The position numbers were made by a program, and so were the translations under genes. 64,000 nucleotides of DNA from Cladopsammia gracilis (Eukaryota > Cnidaria > Anthozoa > Scleractinia > Dendrophylliidae): the NCBI GenBank assembly GCA_022457155.1, contig JAJGOT010000288.1, positions 780,001-844,000 on the forward strand, given 5' to 3'. The notes below the pieces were generated by a model. It had not been told where the DNA came from. It searched no databases and saw only the letters and a program-made list of their open reading frames with translations. Shown here piece after piece: positions 37,457 through 60,941 of the stretch; the first letter of the stretch is position 1, and every line of letters starts with the position of its first letter.

Positions 37457-37760
37457 AAATACTGCATATCCCATATCCCAAGTTCAAAAACACTTAAGAT
37501 ACTTTTTTGCCTATACATTAACTTTTATACTGTAATGTTCAGCATGTCACAGCTTGTTGTGATTGAATCCAGCATTCAATTAAAAAGTGTTTCAAATGGG
37601 ATTTCATTAATGTGGTCTCTGAAGGGAAATGATCATGTTTGGAGTTGTTGCTGAGAGACAGGAAACTATATCACATGTGTAATTATGAAGAGCTGTAAAT
37701 GGAATAATTTATGCTTGCTGATATTGGAGCTTAATGAATAAAAATAATGTTAACAACAAC

Positions 37761-43850: not shown

Positions 43851-44231
43851 GCCATCTTAAGTATTATTAATCCAACTGTTCTATCTGAATCCAGCCTGTG
43901 TGCGAGTATTAGTCTTGAACTTATCATTTCTATTTTTAGAAACCCTTCATATAAAGTCAGTCAAAGGAGAGGAATGGATCTAAGAAAATTGGACTCACAG
44001 GATCAGGAGGAAACATTGTAAAAGTAAGAACAGTCACTAGTTAACTTCAAGTTTGCACTGATTGATAAAAACTAAAATCGAGAGGTTTAATTCAGAATTG
44101 CTGTTTCAGTTAACTAGCTCTATGAGCAGCAACACAAGTGCAAAGGTCACTAAAGGGAAATGATCACATTTGGAGTGGTTTAATACTGAGGGAGAGAAAA
44201 CTGTTCATGTGTGATTATGAATATTAATTAT

Positions 44232-50770: not shown

Positions 50771-51254
50771 ATTATTAATATTCATAATTAATAGTGATTA
50801 TTAATAGTGATTTTTAATACAACTGATTATTAATTCAACTGTTGTATTTGAATCCAGCCTGTGTGTGAGTATTAGTCTTGAACCTATCTTTTCTATTTTT
50901 AGAAACCATTCATATAAAGTCAGTCAATGGAGAGGAATGGATCTAAGAAAATTGGACCTACAGGATCAGGAGGAAACATTGAAAAAGTAAGAACAGTCAC
51001 TAGTTAACTTCAAGTTTGCACTGATTGATAAATACTAAAATCCAGAGGAAAAGAAGTTTGATTCAGAATTGCTGTTTCAGTTTATAACAAGCTCTATGAG
51101 CAGCAATGCAAGTGCAAAGGTCACTAAAGGGAAATGATCACATTTGGAGTGGTTTAATACTGAGGGAGAGAAAACTGTACATTTGTGATTATGAATATTA
51201 ATTATTAATATTCATAATTAATAGTGATTATTAATAGTGATTAGTAATACAACT

Positions 51255-52039: not shown

Positions 52040-52600
52040 ATTTTTACGGTATACGGTGCATGTTACATGTTACACGCTACCACATACACAGTACAGAGAC
52101 ACGGTACGAAATACACGATGCATGCTTACATGGGTATATGATAGTTCAGGGTGCTTGTCGACCCTGCCCTGCATAGACAAATGCATTATGCGTGATGCAT
52201 GCTCTGTGATGCATGATGCGTGATGCGTGATACCTGATGCGTTATGTGTTATGTGTTATACACGATACGTAAAGCGTAATGCTTGCTGCGTGATGCGTGA
52301 CCCTCGGGACACAGTACTTGCTACAAGGTATACGGTATACGACATGGTATACGGTAAACGTTACATGGTATATGGTACACACTACTGCATTCACAGCACA
52401 TGGTACACAGTAAATGCTATACAGCACACGATACATGGTTTGCGATACATGGTACATGCTTACATGGGTATGCGGTTGTCTTGGGGAAACCTCAATGATA
52501 CCTCAGGGTGCTTGTTGACCATGCCCTGCATAGACAAATGCGTGATGCCTGCTCTGTGATGCTTGATGCGTAATACGTAATACTGCCGCAAAATAATTTT
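52040..52600. repeat. Cryptic satellite of TGATGCGTGA and TACACGGTA words
   Basis: Degenerate short words (TGATGCGTGA, GTATACGGTA, CACGATACATGG) run for over 500 bp. A larger duplication of about 330-bp spacing is superimposed (both copies with CTGCCCTGCATAGACAAATG-like core near 52165 and 52520). Translations are compositional artefacts. Confidence 0.7.
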
Positions 52601-53380
52601 ATTGTGAGATTTCCGGCTTGCTCAAGTTTGTGTTGACAAATGGTTGCTTATCAACTTACAGGTATGTCGATCGAACTGCTTAGTATTATTCTGTGCAAGG
52701 CATAAAACAGCTTCTTCTGTGTTTAGTTAAAGCAATAGTGCCTTAGATAACCCATTCTGGGTTCAAGGCAGGCGAATTCTACACTGATTTATCTTCAGTG
52801 AACGTTTTGCTATGAACCGTATAGTTTGACATGCTAAAAGGTCATTATTTGTGTACTTTCCAAATGTTGTTAATTTCATTGCAAAGCGTTGTCACTTTTG
52901 CTGAGAGCAACTTGTCGTGAGTTGCCAGCAATTAAGATGTCATTTCATATCCTAACTAGATACTTTTAAATGTTTTTCATTCGCCTTGTGTCAAATTGTT
53001 AAAACGCACTTGAAATTTAAAAGTAAAGTAAAGTAACCTTTATTTATGCAGGGTAGCCCATTCAGCTCTAGACTGATATCCATTGGGGCCCTGCGTAATT
53101 AATATATCATTAAACAAATTACATTTATAAATTATTGTAAAAGATGAATATATACAAAAATAACTTATCCTAATTAAACTTCTAGAGACATGTTTTAACA
53201 AATCCAGTTTGATATACATGCATACATACACTTTATTGTGCCTTCCTGAGAAGAGCTTTCTAAATATAATGTAATAATCTTTTCAGTTCAGAAGCATTGG
53301 AACGGAAAAAAATGAAATTATATTGTTTACTGCCTATAGCACTTACAGTGAAACTACCTCAACCGGGGCCACCCGAGGAC
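52601..53380. other. Gene-free stretch
   Basis: No gene recognised. Confidence 0.45.
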
Positions 53381-53506
53381 TTTCAGCCAATCAGAGACTG
53401 ATCCTTAAACAAAGAATTGGGCATGCGGATCTCATGGGAAACTGTATGACCGTTTGTTCAATTTTCACCTGTTAATGTTCCCTTCCCGAAAACAGAAGTC
53501 AAAATT

Positions 53507-53880
53507 ATGTCTGTTCAGCTCAGAATCAATCAGGCTGGTGGACTTTTCGAAAACGGGAGAAATTTGCTTCACTTTATTCGCGAAAGGGTCTTGGATCTGC
53601 ATCACAATGGGGCATCACAGCGCCAGATTGCTCAAGAACTTGAACCAGCTGTCATTTTGTTCAAAATGTCTTACGCGACTATGATTTGACCAACTCGTGT
53701 TTTCAAGCTCCAAAAGGTCACAAAGGGCGCACCGTTCTCACACCAAATGCAGTTGAATGCATTTAAATTGAAAAACTTTGTAAACCAAAAATAAAAAAAG
53801 ATCCTTTCGTCGACAACGAAGTGTTTTACGGAAAAATTGGAACCCTCAACATTTGGTTTAGAGAAATTCATTCGGGAAAT
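53507..53880 (+). pseudogene. Paired-domain-like (PAX-type HTH) coding relic
   Basis: The frame from 53507 reads LRINQAGGLFENGRNLLHFI, RERVLDLHHNGASQRQIAQEL. This matches the PAI half of paired domains (NQxGGxFxNGR, then two helices). A frameshift near 53645 moves the similarity to RDYDLTNSCFQAPKGHKGRT and VLTPNAVECI before a stop. The setting inside an inverted-repeat element points to the DNA-binding end of a transposase rather than a developmental PAX gene. No DDE region is readable. Confidence 0.55.
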
Positions 53881-54170
53881 GAAATCGTCACGCAACATTG
53901 AGCGGCTTTCCAGCGATTGACCCTGCTATTTTTTCTCTTCGATTGCTATAAAACCATTTCTACTGAAATGGAAATAGAACGCTTTTTATTTTGTGACGAG
54001 ATGTTTACGAATTTCATACAGTAACGACATGTAATAACGTTACTGTCGTAACGACAGTAACTGAACACTTGTCTTGTTGACATAAAAACATCGCAGCCGC
54101 TTACCAAGATGATTTTTTTCTGATACACAAGCGCTTCCGATAACGGGAATAATTTCCTGTTGTAGAAGTA

Positions 54171-54328
54171 CAGTGGAAATCCGATTTTTCGAATACTCGA
54201 TTTTTCGAAACTCCCGATTATTCGAACCAAAACTCGTTTCCCTTGGATTTGATTTCAGTCAATAGCACCTTCGATTTTTTGAACCAATTTCCGTTCCCTT
54301 GGAGGTTTGAAAAATCGGGATTCCACTG
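54171..54328. mobile_element. pogo/Tigger-like MITE
   Basis: CAGTGGAAATCCGATTTTTC on the left, inverse AAAATCGGGATTCCACTG on the right, with TA on both sides (54169-54170, 54329-54330). The termini and TA duplication fit Tc1/mariner-pogo elements. Confidence 0.8.
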
Positions 54329-54511
54329 TAAAATCAATAGCTTTTGCAATTTAGCCGTAAAGAAAACATGCAAAGTTTTCGAAGACGGCCAGAAATTTAG
54401 GATCGAAATTAACCAATCAAAAAATGATACAGTTTCCCATGAGGTCCGCATGCCCAATTCTTTGTTTAAGGATCAGTCTCTGATTGGCTGAAATTCCTAT
54501 TTCCATTTATG

Positions 54512-54706: not shown

Positions 54707-55673
54707 CATGTTTAACTACCTACAGAGACTTGTGCTGAAAGTGTTCACATGTTCATCACCTCATACCAAAGGGCAGGATTAAAGTACCGGTACTTTAAAG
54801 GGGCATTGTCATGCAGATTTTGCTGTGTTTTGGTCAAAATACACTAAATGTATGACAGAGTACCTTTGCTCAAACATAAAATTGCTTTAAGAGCACCAAT
54901 AAGATAATATCAAGTGATTTCTTCAAGAAAGAACAGACCATAATAAGTTTTTCTGCCATTTTTCCACAACTTTTAATCTTGAACCTGTCTTTTTCTATTT
55001 TTAGAAACCCTTCATATAAAGTCAGTCAATGGAGAGGAATGGATCAAAGAAAATTGGACTCACAGGATCAGGAGGAAACATTGTAAAAGTAAGAACAGTC
55101 ACTAGTTAACTTCAAGTTTGCACTGATTGATAAAAACTAAAATCCAGAGGAAAAGAAGTTTGATTCAGAATTGCTCTTTCAGTTTATAACAAGCTCTATG
55201 AGCAGCAATGCAAGTGCAAAGGTCACCAAATGGAAATGATTACATTTGGAGTGGTTTAATACTGAGGGAGAGAAAACTACATGTGTGAGTCAATCAATCA
55301 AAGGAGGAAGGAGAGGAATGGATCAAAGAAAAGCTGGAATCACAGGATCCTATAGGTAAGAACTTTGATATTGTGCAGTAACTAGTTAACTTCAAGTTAA
55401 CAAAATGCTTGCTGACAAAATTTGTAAAGTTTTGGGGATACCATTACCAGATTTACATGTATTGATTGTTTGCATTGATTGATTAATACATGTACATGTA
55501 AAAAACAGACTGAACAATCTACCAACCATCTAATTATTGTTAATTTCATTTAAACTTTACAAATCTAGGGGGGAAAAGGATAAATTCATAATTGCTGTTT
55601 CAGTTAATAAACTGTATATGTATAAATATGAGCGAATGCAACTGAAATGATTGCATTATTTTGGAGTGGTTGC

Positions 55674-56080
55674 TTATGGTCGTCCATATGTTTCAATATT
55701 CGCTAAATTTTAATTTGTAGACGCTAAACTGATGTTGCTTTTGCTAAACTAAATTCACTGTTGCTAATTTTAATTTGTTAATGCTGAATATCAATTAGCT
55801 GGCGCTAAATTCAATTTGTTGCCGCTAAATTCAAATTTGAAGTCAATAAAATTAATTCTGTGTAGCTAAATTGATTCATTGAATACGCTAAAAATGAACA
55901 CAGGGTGACCCCTACGGGAAGGTTCATCTTAATTTGTTCCCAGGCGGTTTTACCGGAAAGACAAGAAGCTCAAAGATGGCGACCCGAGGGCCAACATCAC
56001 TCTTGCTGCTAAAGTGTGTTTTGTTATTGTGTGCAAAGCATCGTAATTCCTCCAGGTTTTAATAATTTCCTTGCATCAGT
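55674..56080. repeat. Left TIR of the 4.5-kb transposon
   Basis: Inverted partner of 59635-60209. Outer half has CGCTAAATT-type subrepeats, inner half has AGGGTGACCCC, AAGATGGCGACCCGAGGG and the CTCCAGGTTTTAATAATTTC stretch. Shorter than the right TIR because it has fewer subrepeats. Confidence 0.8.
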
Positions 56081-57410
56081 TAAAGAATTAGTGACAGTGA
56101 ACAACTGGCGAATACTAACAGTCCACTCCTACTGTGGTGGATGGCATCATAGGAACAACTTGCTATATTAGAAAGATGTGAAAACAGAGGAAGACACATC
56201 AGCCACTGCTGTGCAATGACGGGTATCGAAAACTGTACAGAGACTTCATCTGACACAAATTTGACAGAAGCAGGAAGCCTCGAATAGATCAAAACGGTGA
56301 ACGGATAGAATGCCTCAGGAGGGGATTCACTTGAGCTACATTGTGAATGAAGTCTCCGTATAGTTTTCAAAACTCTTAACTGCACGTCAGTGACTGATGT
56401 GTCTTTCTCAGTTTTCCCCAACCTCGTTCCCAGGGTCTCTCATCTTCCCGCCCCCTGGAGCGAGAGAAGAGAGACCCTGGTCAACTCTGGTCACGTGCGT
56501 CCCAAAATCTGCAGACTTCAAAACATATCCACATCGACTGGTTTTGAGAGTGCAAGTTGCTTTAGGATCTGTAAATTAACAGTTCGGGAATTGTCACGGC
56601 GCTTGAAGATTTGTCTCAGTATTAAAAGCTAATTTTGGACTCGCTACACAATGAGTGAATGCAGTCCAAACAGTTATTACTGGACGCCGCCGCTAAGCTC
56701 GGTCTCGGCAGAAAATGCTTTTGATTTATGGCATTGTTCCGAACTGGAATGAATTATCGCTACATTCTATTTAGCAGGCGATCTTCAAGCTTCATTCGAC
56801 AGGCACATTATTAAATAGTTTTTATTCTTCGTAGGTGAGGTTATTGTTTTGTTCAACATTTACCAGTTCCAGTCATTTGAATGTCTATACAAGATTTTTA
56901 CATTTCATTGTTTCATTATACGCCTGTGAAATTATTGAACGATAACCATTTTAATCCTTGCGCATAATTCATTTGCTTCTGTTTGAATCGTTTGATTGAA
57001 CTGTTTCCGGACATCAACCAACTCGCTCACAGCACGAGCCACTGTTAAGAAAACGAGACAAAGTTACAAACACTGTCGACCCCTCCTTAGGAATATAATT
57101 GTCCAAGAGGCACGTGACCAGAGTTGACTAGGGTCTCTCTTCTCTCGCTCCAGGGGGTGGGAAGATGAGAGACCGTGGGAACGAGGTTGGGTTTTCCCAT
57201 TTTTCTAAAATAGCAATTAGTTACTGATAGTGTTGACAGATCCCTTGCTACTGCATCATTGTCAACTCGCTGAAGAAGTTGATGTGTAGTATCAACTGCA
57301 TACTGCAATCGGCTGACGACACAGTAGGACTGTTGGTATTCGCCAGTTGTTCACTGTCAGTAAGTAACTCTTCAACTGTAGTCCAGTCAATCTGTGGTTC
57401 AAGATCGAAC
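56080..57410 (-). pseudogene. Second coding region of the 4.5-kb transposon, split by an element
   Basis: After an acceptor-like TTGCAATTAG (about 57410, minus strand) a frame stays open: FDLEPQIDWTTVEELLTDSE, then QYAVDTTHQLLQRVDNDAVA, to about 57195, where inverted-repeat DNA begins. A frame on the other side (56421-56080) starts at the far edge and ends in a hydrophobic tail. Whether these are one protein is uncertain, because segments near 56070-56130 and 57325-57390 are inverted copies of each other. No domain recognised. Confidence 0.3.
56417..57195. mobile_element. Inverted-repeat element (CCAACCTCGTTCCCAGGG termini)
   Basis: Left end CAACCTCGTTCCCAGGGTCT, right end inverse (GGGAACGAGGTTGGG). 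Each end also folds on itself through CAGGGTCTCTC and GAGAGACCCTGG. TTTTC-type flanks on both sides suggest a short target duplication. It lies inside the 4.5-kb transposon. Confidence 0.65.
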
Positions 57411-58389
57411 TAATTGCAACAGAATTTATTTTACCCACAATTGACAGTTTGAGGTGACCTTAGTAACATACTAAAAATTCCAGAAAATTCCATTGGTGGA
57501 ACTTCTAGAAATTCCGACTTAAAGATTTTGATCAATTTACCACAGGGTACCCAAGTCTGGAAAAATTACAATATGCAATATTAATTAAAATTACCGCAAT
57601 ATACAGATTGTTTGGGGGTATAAACTGTTATTTAAGTGTTTTGCAAACAATATGTTGAAAACCCACGAAAATGTAACGTTAAAACGGCATTTCTTAGAAA
57701 TTCCCACCACAGGGTACCCAAGCCAGAGAAATATATTCATTTTTTCCTGTTGTTTTTCTTCTTTTTTTCTTTCCTTTCTAGTAGAACGAAAAGTGTTTGA
57801 CTGAATTTGAGATTATTCATTCGCAAAGTTCTGCACTCTTAAGACTTTGAATCGAATGGTAAGCTCTAGAAATAAGGCAACCTTTTAGGGAAGAGGTCAA
57901 AACAACGGTACTGGATAGGTATCCAGTCTTGTCGAAATAGGTGGTGGGTGGCGGGTTGTACAACCCCACCCCTTTTCAGAGGTTTATTTTCTCGAAGCAC
58001 ATAATAGGGGTACTTAAATTTATTGCATAAATACGTTGCTCTGCGTGTGTAGAGCGCATTGATAGGCTTATCTTCTCAATACGTTGATTATGTTCCGAGA
58101 TATTTGGAGTCAAAAATCGCATTTTGCTAAAAAATCGACCCTAAACTGGATACTTATGAAGTACCGTTGTTTTGACCTCTTCCCTTACTAATAATCCTCA
58201 CTTTATGGAACAAATGCCATGGTGATAGCAATTACCGTTTTACATCACGAGGGTAAATGATCATAACTTCTTTGACCTGTTCCTTGTCTGTCTGTAATTT
58301 TCCCAACTACACAAAAAATGCTGAACAAGCTACTATTAAAACAATACTTGTAATAGGTATGAGGATTACTACTGGCTGGTTGCCTCCCG
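57411..58389. other. Intronic or spacer part of the 4.5-kb transposon
   Basis: No coding signature. The repeated phrases CACAGGGTACCCAAG (57543, 57713) and a C-rich CAACCCCACCCC patch are the only features. Confidence 0.4.
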
Positions 58390-59154
58390 CTACACTCTAT
58401 TGCCGTCCACCTCACTGTCTGTGAGTTCTGGCTGTGGTGAGTTGACACAGCTGACACCTTTGCATGCTCCACAAGCAGCCGAGCAGTCCAAGCCATTTTT
58501 TCGGCAGGAACATCTTTGCGTACTGCAGTCGGTTTTGCAGTTGCAGCGAATGATCTCCAGCAGTGATGCATGGGCAGCAGGCAGGTTGGTGCGTGTCGGG
58601 GATAGGTTTCCACCCTTCATCTCCCATCCCCATTCTTGTGGCGGTAGATCAGTTCTTTTCCATTGCTGCACCTGATGATAGACTCTTAGGCTGTGAAAGC
58701 GCGCAGCAGCAGAAGTCGGTGGAAGGCTTTCTGGCTGGACACAGGTATTGCCTGTAGCAACCTTCAGACAATAACGGGAGTATCGCAAAGAGTCGAGGGA
58801 TTCTGTAGCTTTCCCGTTATACATAGACACCAATAAACTCTCGCCCGCCGCCATCACCTCATCCGTTGTTGCAGCTGTTTTGTCAAAGACACTGGCTTGA
58901 TTACGAAAATGCTCATCGGTCTTGAGCTTGCGCAGGGCTACTGGTTTCCCAAGTCCATGGATCCGAGATGTGGTATCAGAACCAAGAAGCGCATGCCCAA
59001 ATAATATGTGAGTGCATACGCCTAGTCCCAATGCAGACTTTGTCTTCTTGATGTTCCACACCCTGCGGTTCTTCGATCTTTGCTTAGGCTCTGGGATAAA
59101 GAAAAGATCACTCGCATCCATCTGGAAAATTCGCTTTTTTATGTTTCCAGGCAT
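58390..59154 (-). CDS. PIN/XPG-like C-terminal half fused to a CXC domain
   Basis: 254-codon uninterrupted minus-strand frame. Residues 10-70 read DASDLFFIPEPKQRS, VWNIKKTKSALG and HALLGSDTTSRIHGLGK, resembling the helical part after the active site in PIN/XPG-type nucleases of a large invertebrate family. The middle has ESLDSLRYSRYC, LPPTSAAARFHSLRVYHQV and QEWGW. The end (about 205-242) is a Cys-rich CXC-like module: CNCKTDCSTQRCSC and CGACKGVSC. The N-terminal half with the catalytic acidic residues is missing. An acceptor-like TTTTCCAG stands just before ATGGATGCG, so it may come from an upstream exon or be deleted. The domain names are inferred from remembered family patterns. Confidence 0.6.
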   Translation of the reverse strand: MPGNIKKRIFQMDASDLFFIPEPKQRSKNRRVWNIKKTKSALGLGVCTHILFGHALLGSDTTSRIHGLGKPVALRKLKTDEHFRNQASVFDKTAATTDEVMAAGESLLVSMYNGKATESLDSLRYSRYCLKVATGNTCVQPESLPPTSAAARFHSLRVYHQVQQWKRTDLPPQEWGWEMKGGNLSPTRTNLPAAHASLLEIIRCNCKTDCSTQRCSCRKNGLDCSAACGACKGVSCVNSPQPELTDSEVDGNRV

Positions 59155-59634
59155 AAATCAATAGGATTTTAAAGAAACTTTGATTATTTCAAATCAAAAT
59201 GATCACAAAACACTATTCTCTAACTTTTTCAAATGAAAAAGACACTACAAGCCTACAAAAACGATAAAAACATGATTTTGCTGTTTTGGGATACCTGTGG
59301 TACACAAAACACCCTTTAGACTCTAAAACAACAAACATTTAAAACAAACATCACGTTTTCTTGTTTTCTTGTGCTAACATTACTGAAACGAAACCAACTA
59401 GGTATGCCAAAAACCTAAAATAACTAATATCTAGTTGATTATCGCTTTTGTACGGCGTGGGTACCCTGTGGTACAACCAATACATTTTCAAACCCAATTT
59501 TTATCATGTTCCACCAAGCGAATTTTGTGGAATTTTCAGTATGTTGTTTATATAGCTACTCTTAACACTAGAACAGTGAAAAACATTTTGTTGCAATTAG
59601 TTTGATCTTCCCCTATAAAATCTCATAGATTGAC
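59155..59634. other. AT-rich spacer upstream of the CXC gene
   Basis: No frame with a nuclease signature is visible here on the minus strand. It is likely intron or promoter of the transposon gene. Confidence 0.4.
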
Positions 59635-60209
59635 TGGACTACTGATGCAAGAAAATTATTAAAACCTGGAGGAATTACCACGCTTTGCATACATAATAAC
59701 AAATAACACTTTAGCAGCAAGAGCGATATTAACCCTCGGGTCGTCATCTTTGAGCCTCTCGTCTTTTTGTAAACTGCCTGGGAACGAGTTAAGACGAACT
59801 TTCCCTTGGGGGTCACCCTGTGTTAATTTTTAGCACATTGAATGGAGCGATTTAGCAACAGCAAATGAATTTTATCGACTTCGAATTTGAATTTAGCACC
59901 AACGAATTGAATTTAGTGCAGGGAATGGACTTTAGCACCAGTGAATTGAATTTAGCGGCAACAAATTCAGTTTAGAGACAGCGAACTGAATTTAGCGGCA
60001 ACGAATGGAATTTAGCGCCAGCGAATGAAATTTTATAGCAACAGCAAATTTAGTTTAGTGGCAACAAATCGAATTTAGTGACTGTGAGTTGATATTTAGC
60101 ATTAACAAATTAAAATTAGCAACAGTGAATTTAGTTTACTGAAAGCGAAATCAGTTTAGTGACTAGAAATTAAAATTTAGAGAATATTGAAACATATGGA
60201 TGACCATAA
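59635..60209. repeat. Right TIR of the 4.5-kb transposon with subrepeats
   Basis: About 12 units of roughly 24-30 bp with the theme GAATTTAGCGGCAACGAATT between 59820 and 60190. The inner part matches 55900-56080 inversely. Confidence 0.8.
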
Positions 60210-60941
60210 TTGCTGAGAGAGAAAGAGTTAACCGTACGCATGTAACTACATGAACAGCTGTAAATAGAATATACATGCAGATATTGGAGCTTAAAGTCAT
60301 TATACAACTATCTGAATCTAGCCTGTGTATCAGCATCAGTCTTTAATCTTTAATCTTTGATCATTTACTCCTAAAACAGTAAAAACTATACTAGGAGATA
60401 TAAATAACTATAAATATAAAATTGTAAACATAGATTAATACATCAAAACAATGGAATTATGGCTAGAGTGACAGCGGTCTAAAAATTGAATAAAAAAGTA
60501 ATTAAAAAGAAAAACTATACAAGACTATACTATCATTTATATTTTTAGATACCGTTCATATAAAATCAGTCAAGCATACATTTAAGTGGGATTAAGAGGA
60601 ATAGAACAAAGAAAAGCTGGACTCGCAGGATCAGGAGGAAACACTGTGAAGGTAAGAGCTTTGATATTGTGCAGAACATTAAAGGTCTCAAGGATGTACA
60701 GTGTAACACACATTTAAACAATCTATGTAACTTTCCTTAGCAACATTTGATCAAGTCAGGTTTCTTCGTCACTAGAAAATATAGACAAGTACAGTGTAAA
60801 CACACTATAATGGATTCAAATGCAATGAAAAGAATGTGACCTACACAAATAAATATTGGGTGCATTTATGGCCTCAAATTTAAATCCATCATAGACTTAT
60901 CACCCATACCCATATCACTGATACCACCATAGTAAAGTAAT

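Follow-up and report, generated by a model that had tools for sequence, protein, structure and literature searches.

Organization of the locus

Positions 55674-60209 of a 64,000-nt stretch of the Cladopsammia gracilis genome (contig JAJGOT010000288.1, positions 780,001 to 844,000; the whole stretch is hereafter called the window) were described in a first-pass annotation as one complete 4.5-kb foldback-like transposon, with an open reading frame (ORF) for a nuclease/CXC protein as its gene. The structure at this position is real, yet it consists of two nested transposons and not of a single element, and the ORF is part of another element, at 57379-59641, which has its own ends and its own CTG duplication. 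Our reading of the nest, held at a probability of about 0.9, is that a foldback-like outer element of the IS3EU type was present first, and that a young element of the AcademX type, now lacking its middle, then entered its right arm. Both superfamily names are putative, being drawn from termini, duplication length and domain content. The components of the nest are as follows.

55669-55674, plus strand: left target-site copy GTTGCT of the outer element (contains TTGC); the empty paralogous site has GTTGCT once
55675-60208, no strand: outer foldback-like transposon, IS3EU-like, with TATGG...CCATA ends, split by the inner element (arms; terminus at 15 other genomic ends; copy on contig C642)
55675-56124, plus strand: left arm of the outer element, with ~20-bp subrepeats in its outer and a unique sequence in its inner portion
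56418-57190, no strand: inverted-repeat insert of 773 bp within the outer element, with GTTTTCC (7 bp) on either side
57327-57378, minus strand: right arm of the outer element, inner part, severed by the inner insertion
57376-57378, plus strand: CTG, target-site copy to the left of the inner element
57379-59641, minus strand (taken from the gene remnant): inner element of 2,263 bp, an internal-deletion derivative of the AcademX type with inverted-repeat ends TAGTCCAGTCAATC
57888-58184, no strand: short inverted-repeat insert with GGGAAGAGGTC ends, TTA-flanked, also in C1085, C958 and C1131
58405-59115, minus strand: AcademX-type gene remnant, C-terminal nuclease part and CXC motif (P0165 residues 1293-1529, 63% over 237)
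59122-59124, no strand: deletion junction with 3-bp microhomology CTG (alignment with C1085, relative to which 4.17 kb is missing)
59642-59644, plus strand: CTG, target-site copy to the right of the inner element
59645-60208, minus strand: right arm of the outer element, outer part, continuing at 57327-57378 when the inner element is skipped
60209-60214, plus strand: right target-site copy ATTGCT of the outer element, identical to the left copy in 5/6 bases

Separate occurrence of the two end families

Removal of 57379-59641 in silico restored the outer element's right arm, which then aligned with the left arm through the insertion point; the outer element without the inner one measures 2.27 kb. 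The genome of origin (G000, 878 Mb, in which the window is C814:780001-844000) was searched with three queries. With the outer arm, 33 candidates produced 48 matches, those of the window itself included; the protein P0165 gave at least 51 matches (31 of 1,872 candidates scored) and the inner end gave at least 40 (40 of 141 candidates scored). Ends were read at 47 loci, a number that excludes the window's own three. Every one of the 20 loci fetched with the protein had a TAGTCCAG-type end (three mismatches or fewer) and none had an outer end, while the 27 loci fetched with the outer arm had 15 outer ends in total and no TAGTCCAG-type end (0/27). The 47 loci do not represent 47 independent insertions, because several of them are overlapping or duplicated: C16, C1201 and C592 occur twice for one element, and three C750 loci, C1057 and C311 are also among them.

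In one of the two readings offered by the first-pass annotation, the nuclease/CXC protein would serve the mobility of a single 4.5-kb foldback-like element from an uncharacterised superfamily. Long inverted arms with a repeat at their flanks do enclose the ORF, and the loci fetched with the outer arm showed 15 other outer ends. Inner ends were found at none of the 27 loci, and the outer-family copy on C642 had a duplication of 6 bp. The single 4.5-kb element was rejected because the inner element comes with ends and a CTG duplication of its own and because the two end families occur separately at the loci read; we give it next to no credence.

The outer element

Long inverted arms that mix tandem subrepeats with unique inner parts were correctly recognized in the earlier description. 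The arms 55674-55837 and 60046-60209 match over 164 nt (87%), with additional inner blocks, and carry tandem subrepeats of ~20 bp. The 16-mer of the terminus (three mismatches or fewer) had four matches in the window, all at the two outer ends, against a chance expectation of 0.22.

The duplication had been reported as the 4-bp TTGC. This sequence is exact on both sides and agrees with a paralogous empty site at 37626-37734 of the window (73% identity over 119 columns), where GTTGCT is present once; if it were the duplication, the ends would be TTATGG...CCATAA and the element would not be IS3EU. This reading is unlikely and was rejected as the first choice, because the base preceding TATGG is A, T, C or G over 15 other outer-family ends (selected by their likeness to the outer end of the window, some with duplicated flanks), and because the C642 copy (2,527 bp, TATGG...CCATA) has an exact 6-bp duplication, GTGTTC. 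The duplication is better read as the 6-bp pair GTTGCT/ATTGCT, identical at 5/6 positions with one mismatch; the copies of the window and C642 are the two for which both ends were available. With this reading the limits of the element shift from 55674-60209 to 55675-60208.

The accessible part of PMC10045372 describes complete IS3EU families as having TA..TA termini and usually 6-bp duplications, and that of PMC12730594 gives the IS3EU termini of rust fungi as TAYGG..CCRTA. Since its TATGG...CCATA ends and probable 6-bp duplication match these published traits, we take the outer element as IS3EU-like, a class that it fits; it differs in its long arms made of ~20-bp subrepeats and in that no transposase was found in the parts examined. 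Two points weigh against this assignment: the label depends on the ends and on the duplication length in two copies, one of them mismatched, and no transposase was recognized by eye, with no profile search, in the open frames of at least 130 aa at the outer loci, which are partial elements, or in a 7.2-kb stretch of C750. The outer element is probably non-autonomous; the earlier option of a non-autonomous carrier fits both the outer and the inner element, as far as seen.

Foldback elements have long arms that combine tandem subrepeats with unique inner parts. The outer element shares this organization of its inverted arms, but its termini and duplication length fit IS3EU, and foldback is here the name of a shape and not of a family. 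The 773-bp insert at 56418-57190 has arms of 85 nt (95%) and found no match among the other genomic loci compared.

Diverged copies of pieces of the sequence next to the outer element are present elsewhere in the window, at 37626-37734 (the empty site), 44083-44113, 51038-51087 and 43881-43919, which suggests a locally duplicated or repeated region. On C750, three outer-family ends (L003-L005: 2432530, 2464512 and 2494281) are spaced at intervals of ~30-32 kb and share one 12-base flank, a pattern that suggests tandem segmental duplication.

The inner element and its deletion junction

The ends of the inner element, TAGTCCAG...CTGGACTA, are flanked by a perfect 3-bp duplication, CTG. The copy on C1085 (2333705-2340140) is 6,436 bp long with the duplication GAA, and the window copy corresponds to both of its ends, with identities of 99.3% (1,747 columns) and 99.4% (520 columns). 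The copies on C958 (4,070 bp) and C1131 (3,345 bp) share the ends of the window copy at 99.1-99.5%, and the left part of the window copy is 98.6-99.5% identical to nine loci, representing eight other copies (C1131 is present in two loci). Judged by these identities, the inner AcademX-type family is young in the genome. Exact 3-bp duplications, each expected by chance once in 64 by simple arithmetic, were found in 6/8 distinct copies with both ends: TTC on C16, AGC on C592, TTA on C958, ATA on C311 (in two duplicated stretches), GAA on C1085 and CTG in the window. The remaining two copies count against a uniform 3-bp duplication, that on C1131 having 2 bp and that on C1201 none, with ends that are also divergent. 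Because the TTA-flanked insert at 57888-58184 lies in stretches that the window copy has in common with C1085, C958 and C1131, it predates the spread of these copies; its TTA flanks make it a candidate PIF/Harbinger-like element, a group with such 3-bp duplications.

The open frame with the CXC motif extends from stop to stop at 58390-59157 on the minus strand, with 255 codons open, and its gene remnant corresponds to profile positions 1239-1478 of about 1,480. Compared with the C1085 copy, 4.17 kb is absent from the window copy between two CTG triplets. Because this 4.17-kb middle is missing, the window copy is devoid of a transposase core and retains no more than the final ~240 codons. The start of homology in the ORF was also considered as a splice acceptor (CAG before ATG), a candidate rejected because the alignment with C1085 shows a deletion junction at this point, which is not the beginning of a gene either.

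Ds of maize and KP of the P element are internal-deletion derivatives. The inner family resembles them in keeping its ends and losing its middle, as in the copies of 2,263, 3,345, 4,070 and 6,436 bp with common ends, but belongs to another superfamily.

Protein of the longer relatives

The C1085 copy matches a relative of 1,531 aa from end to end (P0165 residues 1-1529) in two frames, with stops present. The relatives carry, in a single chain, an N-terminus with cysteines, a putative DDE core, a nuclease whose domain was modelled, in one relative, with a fold of the FEN/XPG type, and a CXC end. Accidental capture of a gene was therefore rejected, as the relatives have the same C-terminal part and the core in one chain; by sequence comparison, the nuclease/CXC part forms the C-terminus of the protein that the inner family itself encodes. 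The PIN/XPG-like plus CXC interpretation of the domains made in the first-pass annotation was borne out, the ORF being the C-terminal end of a nuclease-CXC protein of ~1,500 aa, and so was the proposed tie of this protein class to mobility, since the ~1,500-aa protein is located in the genome of origin between its own transposon ends. The view that the CXC gene belongs to the foldback-like element, in place of any DDE transposase, was not supported: the gene is not that element's own, and its full-length relatives carry the putative DDE core.

The core has conserved D motifs, with an exact DN.DHN in 39/43 sequences, and its order of strands and helices was read as RNase H-like. Several observations weigh against its DDE nature, which we regard as putative. 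A candidate third acid, GGxHxE, was found by pattern in only 25/43 sequences, and Pfam DUF6589 was detected on the core below the cut-off in 5/11 scanned proteins and was absent in 6/11. The matches of a fold search with P0134 were filled by the nuclease, leaving the core with no fold match, and a weak model of the core by itself (pLDDT 68.6, pTM 0.43) had no fold match at E of 0.001 or less.

Proposed placement of the inner element in AcademX

In the accessible part of PMC10045372, AcademX is linked to a nuclease and to duplications of 3 or 4 bp. AcademH belongs to the same superfamily but encodes a helicase and makes duplications of 9 or 10 bp, according to the portions of PMC10045372 and PMC10799480 at hand. 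The inner family encodes a nuclease, with a model of the FEN/XPG type, and makes 3-bp duplications; the window copy differs from AcademX in lacking the transposase core, being derived by internal deletion. Because the published traits, nuclease and 3-4 bp, match, the nested element would be of a known transposon kind, and its features fit the published AcademX lineage and not the uncharacterised superfamily proposed before. The AcademX nuclease was reportedly assigned to the XPG type by Kojima in 2020.

The nest could also be correct while the inner family represents a separate superfamily with a fusion of core and nuclease. In favor of this, Pfam sees the core only as the sub-threshold DUF6589. 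On the other side, a nuclease together with 3- or 4-bp duplications is the published description of AcademX, and the groups from which Academ is reported in the source passages available (bivalves, a clam and fish) are also among the named sources of relatives of the protein. We consider a separate superfamily quite improbable and retain AcademX as the putative placement.

Surroundings of the nest

An inverted repeat of 81 nt (93%) at 53376-54498 surrounds a decayed fragment that contains a helix-turn-helix of the paired type (Pfam PAX, E 1.6e-4, with stops read as X), probably a Tc1/mariner-like remnant. Degenerate short-period repeats of the GATGCGTGATGC and TACACGGTAC types were seen by eye at 52100-52580.

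Proposed history and implications

The outer foldback-like transposon of the IS3EU type would have been present first, and the AcademX-type element would then have inserted into its right arm, duplicating CTG. The 4.17-kb middle of the window copy was probably lost by microhomology-mediated repair. The AcademX-type protein is expected to act on TAGTCCAG ends, where the core may perform cutting and joining and the fused FEN/XPG-type nuclease may process ends or flaps. If mobile, the window copy would move in trans, by cut-and-paste, with the protein of longer relatives in the same genome.

Short P-element products act as repressors. By analogy, the truncated ORF, with its nuclease end and CXC but most of the catalytic acidic cluster gone, might be expressed and titrate full-length AcademX copies, a conjecture to which we attach very little weight. 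The broader proposal that the remnant encodes a functional small protein under selection, such as a repressor of AcademX movement, is equally improbable: the frame is open over 255 codons in a young copy (98.6-99.5% to the left parts of eight others), but youth by itself accounts for an open frame, and only the last of seven acidic residues of the nuclease domain that are invariant in A2 is retained.

The structure is a layering of two unrelated transposons, the younger one probably of a known kind, an ordinary feature of genomes and not a new mobile system; nesting and internal deletion account for it, which removes an apparent new transposon superfamily. A more general caution follows, in that an open frame between long inverted repeats may not belong to those repeats. 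The presence of long and shortened young AcademX-type copies together in one genome may offer a system for the role of a FEN/XPG-type nuclease in transposition.
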